DNA of 64,000 bases from Brumimicrobium glaciale (GTDB lineage: Bacteria > Bacteroidota > Bacteroidia > Flavobacteriales_D > Crocinitomicaceae). The stretch spans positions 248,001 to 312,000 of the forward strand of contig NZ_SETE01000003.1 in assembly GCF_004152935.1 (NCBI RefSeq), written 5' to 3'. Every line of letters begins with the position of its first letter. Position 1 is the first letter of the stretch. A model generated the notes under the pieces. That model ran no database searches. It was given only the letters and a program-made list of their open reading frames with translations, and had not been told where the DNA came from. The position numbers were made by a program, and so were the translations under genes. Shown here one piece after another: positions 2,156 through 50,703 of the stretch.

Positions 2156-3184
2156 TCAAATAAAATCAAAACCTGTAATATAAGTCGGACTATTAAACAC
2201 AGTTTTCGGTTGTCCTTTCGGCGTTCGAATAACCAAGTCAACATCCTGAACACCATTTACTTTATTCAAAAGTCCCCAATTGACTTTATCCTTATTCGAT
2301 TTATAAAGCGGTTCCTTTTCATCGACCCACCAAATTATAGTATTCGTTTTTTCTTGAAATAGAATTCCTTCAAATAGTTTTTCGAGATAATCTGATTTAC
2401 CTTCCTTACACCAAATTGAATCTACAACTGTGAAAACATGCGAATTGGGACGAATAACTTTTCTTAATCCAGGAACAAAAGGAATAATATTTCTCATTAA
2501 AGTACCATTTCTGCCTGGCAGTCTAGTAATTTTCCATTCTGCACTGTGCGTTTTTGCTAAAGCAACTACTTCCCCATTTATAGTTAATGTATAAAATGGA
2601 TCGTCATTAAAAGTGTGCTTTGTGAAAAACAATGGATGCTTTCCATAAGTTTCTTCAATTTTTTCACGAATAAAATCATTGACTTTAGTTGGCGCTACTT
2701 CTGCGATGTTTTTTGGTTTTACGCGACTAAAGCTTTGCGTAGCAATTTTAGCAACGGTGTAAAAATCAAAATTTTGACTCATCCAAAGTGATCGCTCATT
2801 TCTAGGATCTATATAAGCATAAAATAAATCTGGATTATCATCTTCCAGTTCAAAAGCACTTTCAAAAAAGCCACCAATTCGAGATTTAAGTCCCGAATTA
2901 GTGGCTTTGGATTTTGGTTGTTTATTTGTCGCCTGCATTCCTAAATCGAAAGCAAAGTAACGAACATACCAATTTTTTGGTCTTCTACAAAAAGTAATGT
3001 TACCTAAAACTTTTCCATTCCGTTCCAAATTTAGAAACAACGGACGATAAACTTGCTTGATGCGTTTCTCTAATCTTTGGTGTTGATAACGTGCTCCATT
3101 TGATCCCAATGTAACGGATTTCAACAACTCTAATACGTCGTCGTTATAGCTTTCACGCAATACAAATGGAGGATTTATTTTCAT
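2156..3184 (-). CDS. GNAT-like hypothetical protein
   Basis: A 342-residue cytosolic protein without signal peptide or membrane segment. The N-terminal half resembles a GNAT acyltransferase fold: RPLFLNLERNGKVLGNITFCRR looks like the central beta strands, and FYAYIDPRNERSLWMSQNFDF resembles the acetyl-CoA-binding and C-terminal strands (V/I-xPxxRxxG-like with Arg but no clear Gly). The C-terminal half (about 190-342) has a second alpha/beta part with no motif I recognise. The stop lies at the repeat block and the start is 22 bp after the stop of the upstream alcohol dehydrogenase gene, so the two are probably co-transcribed. The substrate is unknown. Confidence 0.5.
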   Translation of the reverse strand: MKINPPFVLRESYNDDVLELLKSVTLGSNGARYQHQRLEKRIKQVYRPLFLNLERNGKVLGNITFCRRPKNWYVRYFAFDLGMQATNKQPKSKATNSGLKSRIGGFFESAFELEDDNPDLFYAYIDPRNERSLWMSQNFDFYTVAKIATQSFSRVKPKNIAEVAPTKVNDFIREKIEETYGKHPLFFTKHTFNDDPFYTLTINGEVVALAKTHSAEWKITRLPGRNGTLMRNIIPFVPGLRKVIRPNSHVFTVVDSIWCKEGKSDYLEKLFEGILFQEKTNTIIWWVDEKEPLYKSNKDKVNWGLLNKVNGVQDVDLVIRTPKGQPKTVFNSPTYITGFDFI

Positions 3185-3205
3185 TTTTGTAAAATTATAA
3201 AATAA

Positions 3206-4366
3206 TTAGAAACTCATTTCAATTATTTTTTCTGCTTCACTCGGTGTCAAATCTTTACGCTCACCTAATGCTTCCCAACCACGCTCTTCAAAACGTTTTC
3301 TAATCGTTTTAGGTGTAGATTTGTAGTCGTCTGTATAATCAGAAAGCTTTGTTTGAACTCCTAAAGACTCAAAGAAAGTTTTTGTTCTGTGAATTGCTTC
3401 TTCACCGCAAGATCCTTCTAGTCCAAAAATTCTTTGACCGTATTGAATCAGTTTTTCTTTCTTATTTTCAAATTTAACTTTGTACAAATTCGGAGCAATA
3501 ATCGCCAACGTTCTTGCATGATCTATCCCGTGCAAAGCTGTTAATTCGTGACCAATCATGTGCGTTGCCCAATCATAAGCTACACCTGCTCTCAAAGTTC
3601 CATTTAATGCCATTGTAGCGCACCACATTAAATTACTTGCTGCTTTATAATCTGCTGGATTATCCATTACTTTTGGCCCAACTTCAATTAAAGTAGAAAG
3701 GATTCCTTCTGCGATTCTTTCCTGCAATAAATTATCAGATGGATACGTCATGTATTGCTCCAAAGTGTGCATGTAGGCATCAACAATTCCGTTAGCGATT
3801 TGCTTTTTCGGTAATGTTTTAACGACAGTTGGATCTAAAAATGAGAATTTAGGAAAACCTTGTGGCCCGCCCATTGTTCTCTTTTCTTTTAATCTGCTGT
3901 TTGAAATCACAGCACCAGAATTCATTTCTGAACCTGTTGCAGGTAAGGTTAAAACTGTTCCAAAAGGAATTGCATATTCAAACTTACATCCTTCTTTCAT
4001 CGTTAAAACGTCCCAAGGATTACCATCGTATTTTGCTGCTGAAACGATAAATTTTGTTCCATCAATAACAGAACCTCCACCAATTGCTAAAACAAAATCA
4101 ACGGGATTTTCTTTTATTTGTTCAACTGCCTTCATTAAGGTATCATATTCTGGGTTTGCTTCGATTCCTGAGAATTCAACAACTTCATAGTCTTTTAAAG
4201 ATTCCATTACTGAATCATAAACACCATTTTTCTTGATGCTTCCACCGCCATAAGTAATCATAATTCGATTTCCTGCAGTTGCATCTTTTATTCTAGCCGG
4301 AATTTGATCATAAGTATCTTTTCCGAAGATAATTTTTGTAGGGTTGTAATATTCAAAATTGTTCAT
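3206..4366 (-). CDS. yqhD: NADPH-dependent iron-containing alcohol/aldehyde dehydrogenase, YqhD type
   Basis: A 386-residue group III metal-dependent alcohol dehydrogenase, almost the same length as E. coli YqhD (387) and similar throughout: MNNF..PT.I.FGK, ITYGGGS.KK.G, GGGSV.DGTKF, TLPATGSE.N.GAVIS, DWATHM.GHELTA.HG.DHA. The four metal ligands are at D196, H200, H269 and H283, two residues from the known YqhD set D194/H198/H267/H281. The family reduces short and medium aldehydes, including methylglyoxal and lipid-peroxidation aldehydes, with NADPH, and acts in the cytoplasm. It is the first gene of a likely pair with the GNAT-like gene downstream. The exact substrate is not predictable. Confidence 0.9.
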   Translation of the reverse strand: MNNFEYYNPTKIIFGKDTYDQIPARIKDATAGNRIMITYGGGSIKKNGVYDSVMESLKDYEVVEFSGIEANPEYDTLMKAVEQIKENPVDFVLAIGGGSVIDGTKFIVSAAKYDGNPWDVLTMKEGCKFEYAIPFGTVLTLPATGSEMNSGAVISNSRLKEKRTMGGPQGFPKFSFLDPTVVKTLPKKQIANGIVDAYMHTLEQYMTYPSDNLLQERIAEGILSTLIEVGPKVMDNPADYKAASNLMWCATMALNGTLRAGVAYDWATHMIGHELTALHGIDHARTLAIIAPNLYKVKFENKKEKLIQYGQRIFGLEGSCGEEAIHRTKTFFESLGVQTKLSDYTDDYKSTPKTIRKRFEERGWEALGERKDLTPSEAEKIIEMSF

Positions 4367-4514
4367 TTGGTATATTTTTATTGTGTTTTATTCTGCATCA
4401 TTAAGCAGACTTATAATACAAGTTAAAGTGATATTAGTTTTGTACAGCTACTAAAATAAGAATATTGAAGGTAGTATAGTGTTAAAATATACGAAGAGTT
4501 GGGAGGGGATGTTT

Positions 4515-11684: not shown

Positions 11685-11784
11685 TGACAACAATTTTTAT
11701 TTACTACAAATTTAGTGATTACTTAGGAGATTTGTGAGATTTTTCAATGAATAATACCAGATTGAATACTTAAATTAAAGTTTA

Positions 11785-11956
11785 GATAAATACAATTATA
11801 ACTTTCTTTAATTGTATTTATCTCTGTTTTAAAGATAGATAAATACAGATATAGTTTTTCCTATTTGTATTTATCTCCGTTTCAAAGACGATAAATACAG
11901 ATATAAAATTGTATATTTGTATTTATGTGGTAAATTCTCTTGATAAATACAGATAT
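11785..11956 (+). repeat. Tandem array of 52/53-bp palindromic units ahead of the AAA ATPase gene
   Basis: Forward half-sites GATAAATACA(G/A) begin at 11785, 11838, 11890 and 11942. Inverted half-sites TGTATTTATC (last copy ending G) lie at 11813, 11866 and 11918, each inside (A)ATTGTATTTATC or ATTTGTATTTATC. Both series repeat every 52-53 bp, and the spacers (TCTCYGTTT-AAAGA) are also conserved, so this is 3.3 copies of a palindromic unit. The last forward half-site overlaps the start codon of the ATPase (ATG at 11955). The -7 box at 11912-11919 is inside the last inverted half-site. An operator array is the simplest reading. Confidence 0.9.
11912..11919 (+). promoter_or_regulatory. -7 box (TATATTTG) inside the repeat array
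   Basis: TATATTTG matches TAnnTTTG exactly. The corresponding positions of the earlier unit read CCTATTTG, so only the last copy forms a consensus box. The ATG is 36 bp further on, a normal leader length. Confidence 0.55.
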
Positions 11957-13382
11957 GATAGGAAGAAAAGAACAGAAAAAACTGATGAATGGATTTCTTG
12001 ATAAAAAGAAATCTGCTTTTTTAGCTGTAACAGGCAGACGAAGGGTTGGAAAAACATATCTTATAGATGAAGTATATGACAATCATTTATGTCTGAGAAT
12101 AACAGGGATACAAGACGCCGACATACAAACGCAAATATATAATTTTACACAAAAAATAGCAGAATACTCAAAGCTGCCCATTGTGACTCCTCCTAACAAC
12201 TGGCAAGAAGTATTTTCACTGTTGAAAATTTATTTAGGGTCACTGCCAAAAACTAAAAAGCAGGTAATTTTCATTGACGAATTACCTTGGATAGCCACAA
12301 AGCGTTCTGGATTCATACAATTGTTAGCGCACTTATGGAATGATTATTTATCCAAAGAGAAACATTTTATCTTGGTGGTTTGTGGTTCTGCAACTTCTTG
12401 GATTACGGAAAAAATAGTAAATGATAAAGGTGGTTTTCACAACCGATTAGACCAAGCGATCCAACTAAAGCCATTTACTTTAAAAGAAACTAAAGATTTC
12501 TTGATGAAAAAAGAAATTAAGCTTACAGATCAAGCCATAACAGAAATATATATGGTCATGGGTGGTATTCCGTATTATTTAGATCAAATAAAAAAAGGAG
12601 AATCAGTAAGACAAATAATAGCGAGACTTTGTTTTGCTGAAAATGGAATTTTAAAAAATGAATACGTAAATCTATATAAAGCCCTGTTTGAAAACTCGGA
12701 CAATCATGAAGCTATAGTAGCAGCATTGGCAACTTCTCAAAGTGGTTTAACAAGAATACAAATCATTAGCAAATCCAAGGTGAAAGAAGGTGGCCCCTAT
12801 ACAAGAGCAATAAACGACTTATTGGTTTCGGGCTTTGTGGAAGAAGTGCTGCCTTATGGAAGAAGTAAGAGAGGAGCTTTATACCGATTGATAGACGAGT
12901 ACTCAGTCTTTTACCATAAATTTATTACCAAAAACAAGAAAAAAGGAAAAGAGATCTGGGCAACCTTGCACCAATCTCAGCAATATAAAATTTGGACAGG
13001 CTATGCTTTTGAAAACTTATGCCAACGCCATATTGATGAAATAAAAAATGTCTTGGGAATTTCAAGTGTTTACACCGAGCATTATTCTTTTAACAGTAAA
13101 ACAGATGGAAGCACACAATCCAATTACCAAATTGATTTGATAATTGATCGAAAAGACGACTGCATCAATTTGTGTGAATGTAAGTTTCACAATGGCGAAT
13201 TCACAATAACTAAAGAATATGCCGCAAAACTTAGAAACAGAAAACAAGCATTTATAGAAAGTACAAAAACAAAAAAGACAGTTTTCAATACCTTAATTAC
13301 TAATCACGGGGTTAAGGAAAACGAACATTTCTTGGATGTGATAGATGTGAGTTTCACAGTGAGTGATTTGATGAAGGGATAA
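11955..13382 (+). CDS. AAA ATPase with C-terminal DUF234 nuclease-like domain
   Basis: A protein of 475 residues from the ATG at 11955 (a TTG at 11940 would add MINTD, but those codons are repeat sequence). The N-terminal ATPase_2-type domain has Walker A GRRRVGKT (27-34), Walker B VIFIDELPW, the sensor-like VVCGSATSW and GGIPYYLDQI. The middle is a winged-helix region (SGLTRIQIISKS, GALYRLIDEYSVFYHKF). The C-terminal DUF234 domain has a PD-(D/E)xK-like core, QIDLIID followed by CECK. These archaeal-type ATPases are widespread accessory genes in Bacteroidota with no agreed function. The upstream repeat array is its most unusual feature. Confidence 0.85.
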   Translation: MIGRKEQKKLMNGFLDKKKSAFLAVTGRRRVGKTYLIDEVYDNHLCLRITGIQDADIQTQIYNFTQKIAEYSKLPIVTPPNNWQEVFSLLKIYLGSLPKTKKQVIFIDELPWIATKRSGFIQLLAHLWNDYLSKEKHFILVVCGSATSWITEKIVNDKGGFHNRLDQAIQLKPFTLKETKDFLMKKEIKLTDQAITEIYMVMGGIPYYLDQIKKGESVRQIIARLCFAENGILKNEYVNLYKALFENSDNHEAIVAALATSQSGLTRIQIISKSKVKEGGPYTRAINDLLVSGFVEEVLPYGRSKRGALYRLIDEYSVFYHKFITKNKKKGKEIWATLHQSQQYKIWTGYAFENLCQRHIDEIKNVLGISSVYTEHYSFNSKTDGSTQSNYQIDLIIDRKDDCINLCECKFHNGEFTITKEYAAKLRNRKQAFIESTKTKKTVFNTLITNHGVKENEHFLDVIDVSFTVSDLMKG

Positions 13383-13508
13383 AAGGGATAAATTTACTCG
13401 CTAGTTTTCCGCTAATACTCAACTCTCGTCCACATTTTCATAACTTTTATATCTATGACTACTAATATTTTTCCTATTTTCGGATTCTTTAATTAAAACA
13501 CTCCAATA

Positions 13509-49242: not shown

Positions 49243-50703
49243 TTATTTTTTAATAATCTTTTTAATACTGTTCCCTTTATTGGTTTCAACTTCTAAAAAA
49301 TAAATACCAGATCGTAAATCACTTACGTCTATAGTTTTAGCATCACTTTGTAATATCAATTGTCCAAAACAATTATAGATAACCGCTTTTTTATATTCTA
49401 AATTATCTGTGAATTGCATTTGCAAAAGGTTATCTACTGGATTGGGAAATACGGTGAAGTTTTCGGATAAATAGTGATCCGAAACATTTAAATAAAGTTC
49501 GGTTAAATCATAGACAGCTAGCCTACCTCTATTGCTACTATTAGAAGGTGTGCCAATCGCTATTGTATTTGCGTTGGATGACAAACTAACACTATATCCA
49601 AAACCACCAACGTTACTTCCAGCGACATAAATATCAACACCTATTTGTGTCCAAACATTTGAAATATTCATATACACATTCACATAACCTGGCTCATATC
49701 CTATGGTTTGAATTGCTCCAATAGCAACTATTTTTCCATCCGACGATAAACTTACACTATGTCCTGATTTATCACCTGCTGCTTTTCCATTAATATCATC
49801 ACCCACTTGAGCCCATACTCCTGAACCGAATTCATAAACACGGACATGACCAGAACTATTTCCATTCTCGTCATTTAAAGTTGCTCCGATTGCAACTGTT
49901 GCTCCATCTGATGATAAACTAACACTCCATCCTGAATAATCACCTGCGGCTTCGCCATCAATGTCATCGCCCATTTGAATCCATACTCCTGAAATATTTT
50001 TATAAACGCGAACATGCCCAGCGTTAATTCCATTTTCGCCATTACCTCTTGCTCCGATAGCTACTATAGATCCGTCGGATGATAAACTAACACTCCATCC
50101 TGAATAATCGCTGCCCGCTTCGCCATCAATGTCATCCCCCATTTGAATCCATACTCCTGAAACATTTTTATAAACACGCACATGTCCCGACCAAAAAACA
50201 CTCCCGCTTTTATGATTGTTAGGAGCTCCAACAGCGAGAATGCTGCCATCAGCAGACAAACTTACACTCCATCCGAAATCATTAGCTATTGCTTCTGCAT
50301 TAATATCTGCGCCAATTTGAACCCAATCTCCTAATTCAAATTTATAAATTCTCACTTGACCTGCCGAATTACCATTTTCATCATTTCCAGGTGCTCCGAT
50401 AGCTAATGTTGTTCCGTCAGATGATAAACTAACACTACTTCCAAACCTATCAATTTCTGCTTCACCTATAATATCATTTCCCATTTGAACCCAATCTCCT
50501 GCACTTTTTTTGTAAACACGTGTAAGACCTGTATCTGAATTGTAACCAGTTGCTCCAACTGCAACTGTTTCTCCGTCAGACGACAAACTTACACTTCCTC
50601 CTAAACCATCTCCAATTTCTCCATTGATATCAGCACCAATTTGAGTTTGTGAATGAATTGTGATTGAGCTTAATAGCACTAAATAAATTATTATTGTTTT
50701 CAT
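49243..50703 (-). CDS. T9SS-exported seven-bladed propeller-like protein
   Basis: A 486-residue secreted protein. After the signal peptide (1-18, HSQ) come seven repeats of about 50-60 residues, each with G-x-SVSLSSDGxxxAxGA and RVYK...WxQxGxDIxGEA, which suggests a seven-bladed FG-GAP/integrin-alpha-like propeller. The repeats are close at DNA level too, so recombination between them is plausible. The end is a type A sorting domain (FTVFPNPVDNLLQMQF, VIYNCFGQLIL, SGIYFLEVETNKG, KKIIKK). It should be anchored at the cell surface; ligand unknown. Confidence 0.88.
   Translation of the reverse strand: MKTIIIYLVLLSSITIHSQTQIGADINGEIGDGLGGSVSLSSDGETVAVGATGYNSDTGLTRVYKKSAGDWVQMGNDIIGEAEIDRFGSSVSLSSDGTTLAIGAPGNDENGNSAGQVRIYKFELGDWVQIGADINAEAIANDFGWSVSLSADGSILAVGAPNNHKSGSVFWSGHVRVYKNVSGVWIQMGDDIDGEAGSDYSGWSVSLSSDGSIVAIGARGNGENGINAGHVRVYKNISGVWIQMGDDIDGEAAGDYSGWSVSLSSDGATVAIGATLNDENGNSSGHVRVYEFGSGVWAQVGDDINGKAAGDKSGHSVSLSSDGKIVAIGAIQTIGYEPGYVNVYMNISNVWTQIGVDIYVAGSNVGGFGYSVSLSSNANTIAIGTPSNSSNRGRLAVYDLTELYLNVSDHYLSENFTVFPNPVDNLLQMQFTDNLEYKKAVIYNCFGQLILQSDAKTIDVSDLRSGIYFLEVETNKGNSIKKIIKK

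Follow-up and report, generated by a model that had tools for sequence, protein, structure and literature searches.

PDC-S27 is a single-gene defense candidate in which an ATPase is combined with a PD-(D/E)XK domain; the family is reported to be common, with 3503 archaeal and 4562 bacterial cases in the census and classification of PMC12988326, a paper that regards most candidates of this sort as still awaiting validation. Its main text nowhere uses the words "palindrom," "inverted repeat," "promoter," or "operator." Among the matches listed from the open literature (titles and the beginnings of abstracts), there was no report of palindromes at PDC-S27 genes.

We analyzed a window of 64,000 nucleotides from Brumimicrobium glaciale (contig NZ_SETE01000003.1, positions 248,001 to 312,000), in which an array of palindromic half-sites leads into an ATPase gene that we take to lie between hemL (on the complement) and a kynureninase gene. 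The encoded protein is a full-length match to the PADLOC profile PDC-S27 and has the domain plan described in PMC12988326.

The nearest solved fold is that of 2qen, a Walker-type ATPase of Pyrococcus abyssi that covers 350 residues. No DNA site is known to us for 2qen. Archaeal Orc1/Cdc6 initiators recognize inverted repeats next to the genes that encode them, and the origin-DNA-bound structure 2qby joins AAA+ to a winged helix, as the window protein probably does; however, Foldseek superposes them only loosely (rmsd 8 to 15), the window protein has a nuclease-like domain, its palindrome is centered on the predicted promoter, and we found no evidence at the window locus of a replication link of the Orc1/Cdc6 kind. 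IniR, according to PMC5760070, is a signal-transduction ATPase that serves as the dedicated regulator of one promoter, which is the role proposed here for the window ATPase, but it controls another operon, iniBAC. Insertion of IS1272, as outlined in PMC5678879, involves inverted-repeat structures, a likeness to the loci described below, and no target-site duplication; IS1272 carries a transposase gene, whereas these loci carry an ATPase-nuclease gene with, in some of them, complete palindromes at each end.

Results

The array and the protein encoded behind it

Seven half-sites in strictly alternating orientation occupy positions 11784-11955 and run into the ATG at 11955 of the 475-aa ATPase gene (11955..13382, forward strand). 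The arms are 15 bp long (AGATAAATACARATA or its complement). Half-sites 1 (AGATAAATACAATTA, 11784..11798), 3 (11837..11851), 5 (11889..11903), and 7 (11941..11955, extending to the start codon) are on the forward strand, and half-sites 2 (11809..11823), 4 (11862..11876), and 6 (11914..11928) are inverted, on the reverse strand; relative to the ATG they start at -171, -146, -118, -93, -66, -41, and -14. Successive centers are 25, 28, 25, 27, 25, and 27 bp apart, and half-sites of the same orientation recur every 52-53 bp, or about five helical turns. TRF reported a tandem repeat at 11783-11926 (period 53, score 176), and a repeat search of the window returned 53-bp units with an additional half-site at 11938-11957. 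Half-sites 3 and 4 form the strongest palindrome in the 120 bp preceding the ATG, and 0 of 200 dinucleotide shuffles matched it. TAnnTTTG is the Bacteroidota-type -7 promoter motif; a predicted box of this type, TATATTTG (11912..11919, forward strand), is present in the last full repeat unit only, where half-site 6 overlaps it. The preliminary description of this DNA, with half-sites alternating about every 26 bp in tandem units, a last half-site at the ATG, and a -7 box confined to the last unit, is thus borne out. Another tandem repeat of the window lies at 49713-50184 (period 168, 2.8 copies).

The reading frame does open at a TTG inside the repeat (11940), as was noted earlier, but we reject a start at that TTG on the evidence of the homologues, which align from MIGRK/MTGRK and make the ATG at 11955 the probable start codon. 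The start codon sits where homologues start, which lends no support to the earlier suggestions that the original 5′ end was sacrificed as the array expanded or that translation proceeds through it.

The PADLOC match (606 bits, E = 1.1e-182) spans residues 1-473 and profile positions 4-473 of 474. Pfam ATPase_2 (PF01637) scored 72.8 bits against a cut-off of 33.2, and DUF234 (PF03008) scored 17.3 bits, below its gathering cut-off of 22.5; ATPase_2 and PDC-S27 thus suit the protein better than the earlier label "DUF234 ATPase." We presume the ATPase to be of the STAND/MNS-clade type. It had no match in NCBIfam, and a sequence search of solved structures gave no credible relative (single match, E = 0.57). 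In an alignment of 37 homologues, the Walker A motif (GRRRVGKT, residues 27-34; 12033..12056, forward strand) is invariant as GRRR-x-GKT except at one position, D108-E109 are invariant, and E353, D394, E408, and K410 are invariant in all rows. D394, E408-x-K410, and E353 together form a PD-(D/E)XK signature in the C-terminal domain (residues 330-475; 12942..13379, forward strand; delimited by alignment and predicted structure), which we call PD-(D/E)XK-like, a label taken from PMC12988326.

An AlphaFold2 model built from eight sequences (mean pLDDT 85.6) has three parts: the ATPase core, then at residues 248-312 a helix-helix-helix-strand-strand segment, and finally a C-terminal alpha/beta domain. 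The middle segment (predicted helices 248-258, 267-274, and 280-292; strands 295-298 and 309-312) is a probable winged helix, and alignment and model together place the probable winged helix-turn-helix domain at residues 245-315 (12687..12899, forward strand). The top Foldseek match among solved structures, 2qen (E = 6.7e-12, TM = 0.48 by query length), was followed by Orc1/Cdc6, ORC, and NLR ATPases, with loose superposition.

Upstream palindromes at homologous loci

Homologues were gathered from genomes of the window's order, phylum, and family and from plasmids, phages, and viral contigs. From 138 loci we used 106 nonidentical ones, 32 being excluded as duplicates (24) or for want of a usable start (8). 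We scored inverted repeats within 120 bp upstream of each gene against dinucleotide shuffles. An upstream inverted repeat was significant at P ≤ 0.05 in 89/106 homologue loci and in 9/113 control genes from the same loci, and at ≤ 1/200 in 71/106 and 4/113, respectively (Mann-Whitney P = 1.8e-32, for loci that are related, include sister genomes, and are not independent). The comparison of homologue upstream regions that the preliminary description had called for thus returned such palindromes, although in differing spelling. Several of the 17 loci without a significant palindrome show a visible but weak repeat; the haloarchaeal locus L088 has no palindrome, and the other haloarchaeal locus, L087, was left out of the scoring.

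The 89 significant loci have two (27 loci), three (23), four (32), or five to seven (7) half-sites. Spelling varies by subfamily and includes GATAAATAC/GATAAATCC, GCCAAA, TTCCGCG-like, TTCCAAA, CCCAAAT, TAAAGTAGT, and others. The upstream palindrome was significant at a Butyrivibrio plasmid locus (L084), and palindromes were visible by eye but below threshold at two loci of Wolbachia phage WO (L089 and L094; equaled in 23 and 12 of 200 shuffles). At L089, two tandem palindromes with CCGCGG arms are visible by eye before the homologue, which adjoins phage head genes. A comparison set of DUF4143 ATPases had a significant upstream repeat in 8/30 loci, a proportion between that of the controls and that of PDC-S27; among 40 family genomes, these ATPases gave 19 matches in G157 and 23 in G228. 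The PDC-S27 family is patchy (29/299 order genomes, 43/240 family genomes). A viral scan with a single sequence found no homologue, and an alignment-based scan found 12 loci. By these sequence comparisons, the window array is one local instance of a rule that runs through the PDC-S27 family.

The palindromes also coincide with the predicted promoters. TAnnTTTG occurs within 70 bp upstream of the gene in 80/106 loci, compared with 7.0 expected from shuffles, and it was found 0 times in an equal-size stretch inside the genes of the 106 loci. Of the 89 loci whose repeat was significant, 72 have such a box; in 61 of the 72 it falls within the proximal inverted pair. If the predicted box is used, transcription would start after most of the palindrome.

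Possible specificity of palindrome for gene

The strict form of the window palindrome occurs at this locus only in the window's genome, by which a REPIN/REP-type genome-wide repeat family is rejected for this palindrome. A looser pattern searched in 15 genomes also found the same place in the relative G290 and one dissimilar match in G204. This, together with the 89/106 loci above, is the opposite of what the preliminary description had named as contrary to its proposal, namely orthologues lacking the array and repeats spread genome-wide. The putative dedicated palindromic operator that it proposed has good comparative support, from the homologue palindromes and from the window palindrome not being scattered through its genome.

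A strict GCCAAA-type palindrome was found in 40 copies in 21/240 family genomes, compared with 0 for the reversed control pattern. By hand count, 32 of the 40 are no more than about 170 bp away from a PDC-S27 gene (in one case a partial gene), and the other eight are solo, at seven places. The window's genome has a near-perfect solo GCCAAA palindrome outside the window (L171, G000:C3:330068-330114); the 1.5 kb around it showed no credible remnant of the ATPase. It also has a PDC-S27 paralogue (L041, G000:C5:141500-148900, at about 2926-4451 of that piece) that is 43-45% identical to the window ATPase, with a GCCAAA-type palindrome on each side of the gene. In the 16 compared genomes with at least two homologues, half-sites differ between paralogues in most, and several share the GCCAAA core.

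We compared operator distance with protein distance over 87 loci, using partial correlation with the other domains removed and Mantel tests. Operator distance correlates with every protein domain tested; the partial correlation was 0.167 for the winged helix (Mantel P = 0.001), 0.153 for the ATPase, and -0.022 for the nuclease. Among 23 windows of 35 aa, the strongest positive value (0.182) was at residues 261-295, overlapping the predicted recognition helix (280-292), and some windows were equally strongly negative (-0.214 at residues 341-375). The correlation with the winged helix offers modest support for a palindrome read by its own protein; it is weak, and that of the ATPase domain is nearly equal.

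The hemL-kynureninase locus in relatives

The kynureninase gene is present in nine of the 10 genus genomes and lies beside hemL in six: the window's genome (G000), G280, G290, G151, G115, and G088. The ATPase gene and the array occur together at this locus in the window's genome and in G280; in G280, hemL is seen in L009, an extra small ORF lies between, and the ATPase gene is frameshifted. In G290 (L155, contig C33), the hemL-kynureninase spacer has a clean array of the window's palindrome without the gene, and in G151, G115, and G088 the arrays are decayed and the gene is absent. These last four genomes gave no PDC-S27 homologue at the search thresholds used. Once the gene is taken out, the half-sites of the window array align one by one with those of G290, the indel being the gene plus about 40 bp. 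The kynureninase tree pairs G000 with the gene-less G151 and places G280 elsewhere (supports 0.84-0.95), so that either the gene was gained or lost more than once or the locus was exchanged.

Palindromes on both sides of the gene

In 32 of the 82 loci with enough sequence, the half-sites that precede the gene appear again, in both orientations, directly 3′ of its stop codon, and 31 of these 32 recurrences beat all 100 shuffles. A right-hand palindrome was not found in the other 50, the window gene included; a possible remnant half-site there (GATAAATTTAC, 13387..13397, forward strand) is not significant, as 55/100 shuffles of the downstream region score equally well. At L148 and L170 (G699:C125), seven half-sites stand 3′ of the gene and the 3′ end region is duplicated, as if several units had decayed side by side; past the known gene's end, L170 showed no coding remnants. 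At L027, the C-terminal part of a second PDC-S27 gene survives as a convergent remnant, roughly 370-900 bp beyond the stop; its best piece has 74% identity across 39 residues.

We compared 170 homologue pairs at ≥ 62% identity, many of the close ones representing a single locus whose flanks are homologous too. Four pairs lie in unrelated surroundings (L033/L134, L069/L070, L122/L131, and L109/L145, with gene nucleotide identities of 93.6, 90.4, 85.1, and 84.6%, respectively). In each, the shared DNA ends at the outer palindromes or within about 40 bp of them, with no flank homology within the fetched flanks (178 to about 2000 bp). L067/L070 and L047/L128 have a common right flank and share only the palindrome stretch on the left; in L147/L148, the genes are 97% and the left flanks 68% identical. 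Three further candidate pairs were rejected: the left flanks of L034/L037 are weakly similar, the flanks of L042/L044 are homologous, and in L072/L077 the right flank of one resembles the left flank of the other. For L041, comparison with L166 as a pre-insertion site showed the same neighbors in sequence too diverged to place the edges.

A further site is seen with and without the gene. Between G702 (L133) and G703 (L175), the left flank is 92% and the right-flank pieces are 95% identical, with about 0.8 kb extra further right in G703; G703 is without the gene and keeps two palindromes, of which the inner one matches the right-hand palindrome of G702. Six more places, spread over six genomes, carry solo palindromes, and two pairs of these each represent one site shared by sister genomes; L172, at first taken as solo, in fact follows a partial gene at a contig end.

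Two accounts of how genes came to be missing or present are compatible with an operator. According to the first, the palindromes are operators only, and the gene is a passive cassette that is gained and lost through host recombination between repeats and through horizontal transfer. We put this at little short of an even chance: the gene-less junctions fall in repeats, the family is patchy, and the paralogues within a genome have diverged, but on its own it leaves unexplained the arrival at unrelated sites and the homology that ends near the palindromes.

According to the second, which we regard as unlikely but worth keeping in view, the palindromes mark the ends of a mobile element with a single gene, and its ATPase-nuclease recognizes them and moves the unit of palindrome, gene, and palindrome, the operator being the usual autoregulation of such elements. 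The four pairs that share only the gene and a stretch bounded near the outer palindromes point this way, as do the palindrome left at L175 and the solo copies elsewhere. On the other hand, no target-site duplication was seen by eye in alignments of the similar-gene pairs, Pfam has no transposase among the nine families at E ≤ 1, a right-hand palindrome was not found in most of the 82 loci, most of the closest pairs are the same locus, and recombination between repeats of about 49 bp also accounts for the losses. Paralogues within the 16 multi-homologue genomes are only 38-58% identical, with no recent copies, which slightly lowers its probability further. The broader proposition that PDC-S27 genes as a class are single-gene mobile elements, with their own palindromes serving as operators and as ends for excision and insertion that leave solo palindromes behind, strikes us as rather doubtful; if it were true, what is labeled defense would be the competition of such an element with other mobile DNA.

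Other possible readings of the array

It is improbable that the array is bound by a regulator whose gene lies elsewhere. Some genomes in which no homologue was detected do retain arrays, which something else could maintain there, but in the window's genome the site exists at this locus only, and spelling changes with gene subfamily.

Least probable is that the array acts as RNA, through leader hairpins that regulate the gene or through repeats yielding a type III toxin-antitoxin-like RNA: tandem repeats do stand immediately 5′ of a possible toxin-like gene, but because the predicted -7 box is inside the last palindrome most of the array is expected to lie outside the mRNA, which argues against a transcribed antitoxin, mismatches in 1391 arm pairs have no clear G-U bias (25 in sense RNA vs. 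20 in antisense), Rfam has no match for the array, and Pfam gives ATPase families and no ribonuclease after the repeats.

Discussion

We consider it probable, with some reserve, that the array serves as an operator in several copies, read by the very protein whose gene it controls, and that the palindromes are acquired and lost jointly with the gene. The first part is argued from a palindrome that overlaps the gene's own predicted promoter, is conserved with the gene, follows the protein in its spelling, and is unique to its locus, and the second from the unit edges in the four pairs and the gene-less arrays.

Under this operator reading, the winged helix of the ATPase, as a dimer or oligomer, would bind half-sites spaced so as to return to the same face of the DNA, and the bound protein would cover the -7 box and repress its own promoter. 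A potentially harmful ATPase-nuclease would thereby be kept low until a trigger releases it. Palindromes spelled differently in each subfamily would mean that paralogues need not fully cross-regulate. Palindromes and gene may be gained or lost jointly, through recombination between repeats or through the activity of the protein itself, with solo palindromes left behind.

The window gene looks like a possible phage-defense enzyme within a self-regulated, possibly mobile one-gene unit. For the family, a cognate palindrome would give most PDC-S27 members a ready candidate binding site, so that specificity, regulation, and mobility could be put to straightforward binding and reporter assays. Solo palindromes, in turn, may be the footprint of past carriage of the gene.
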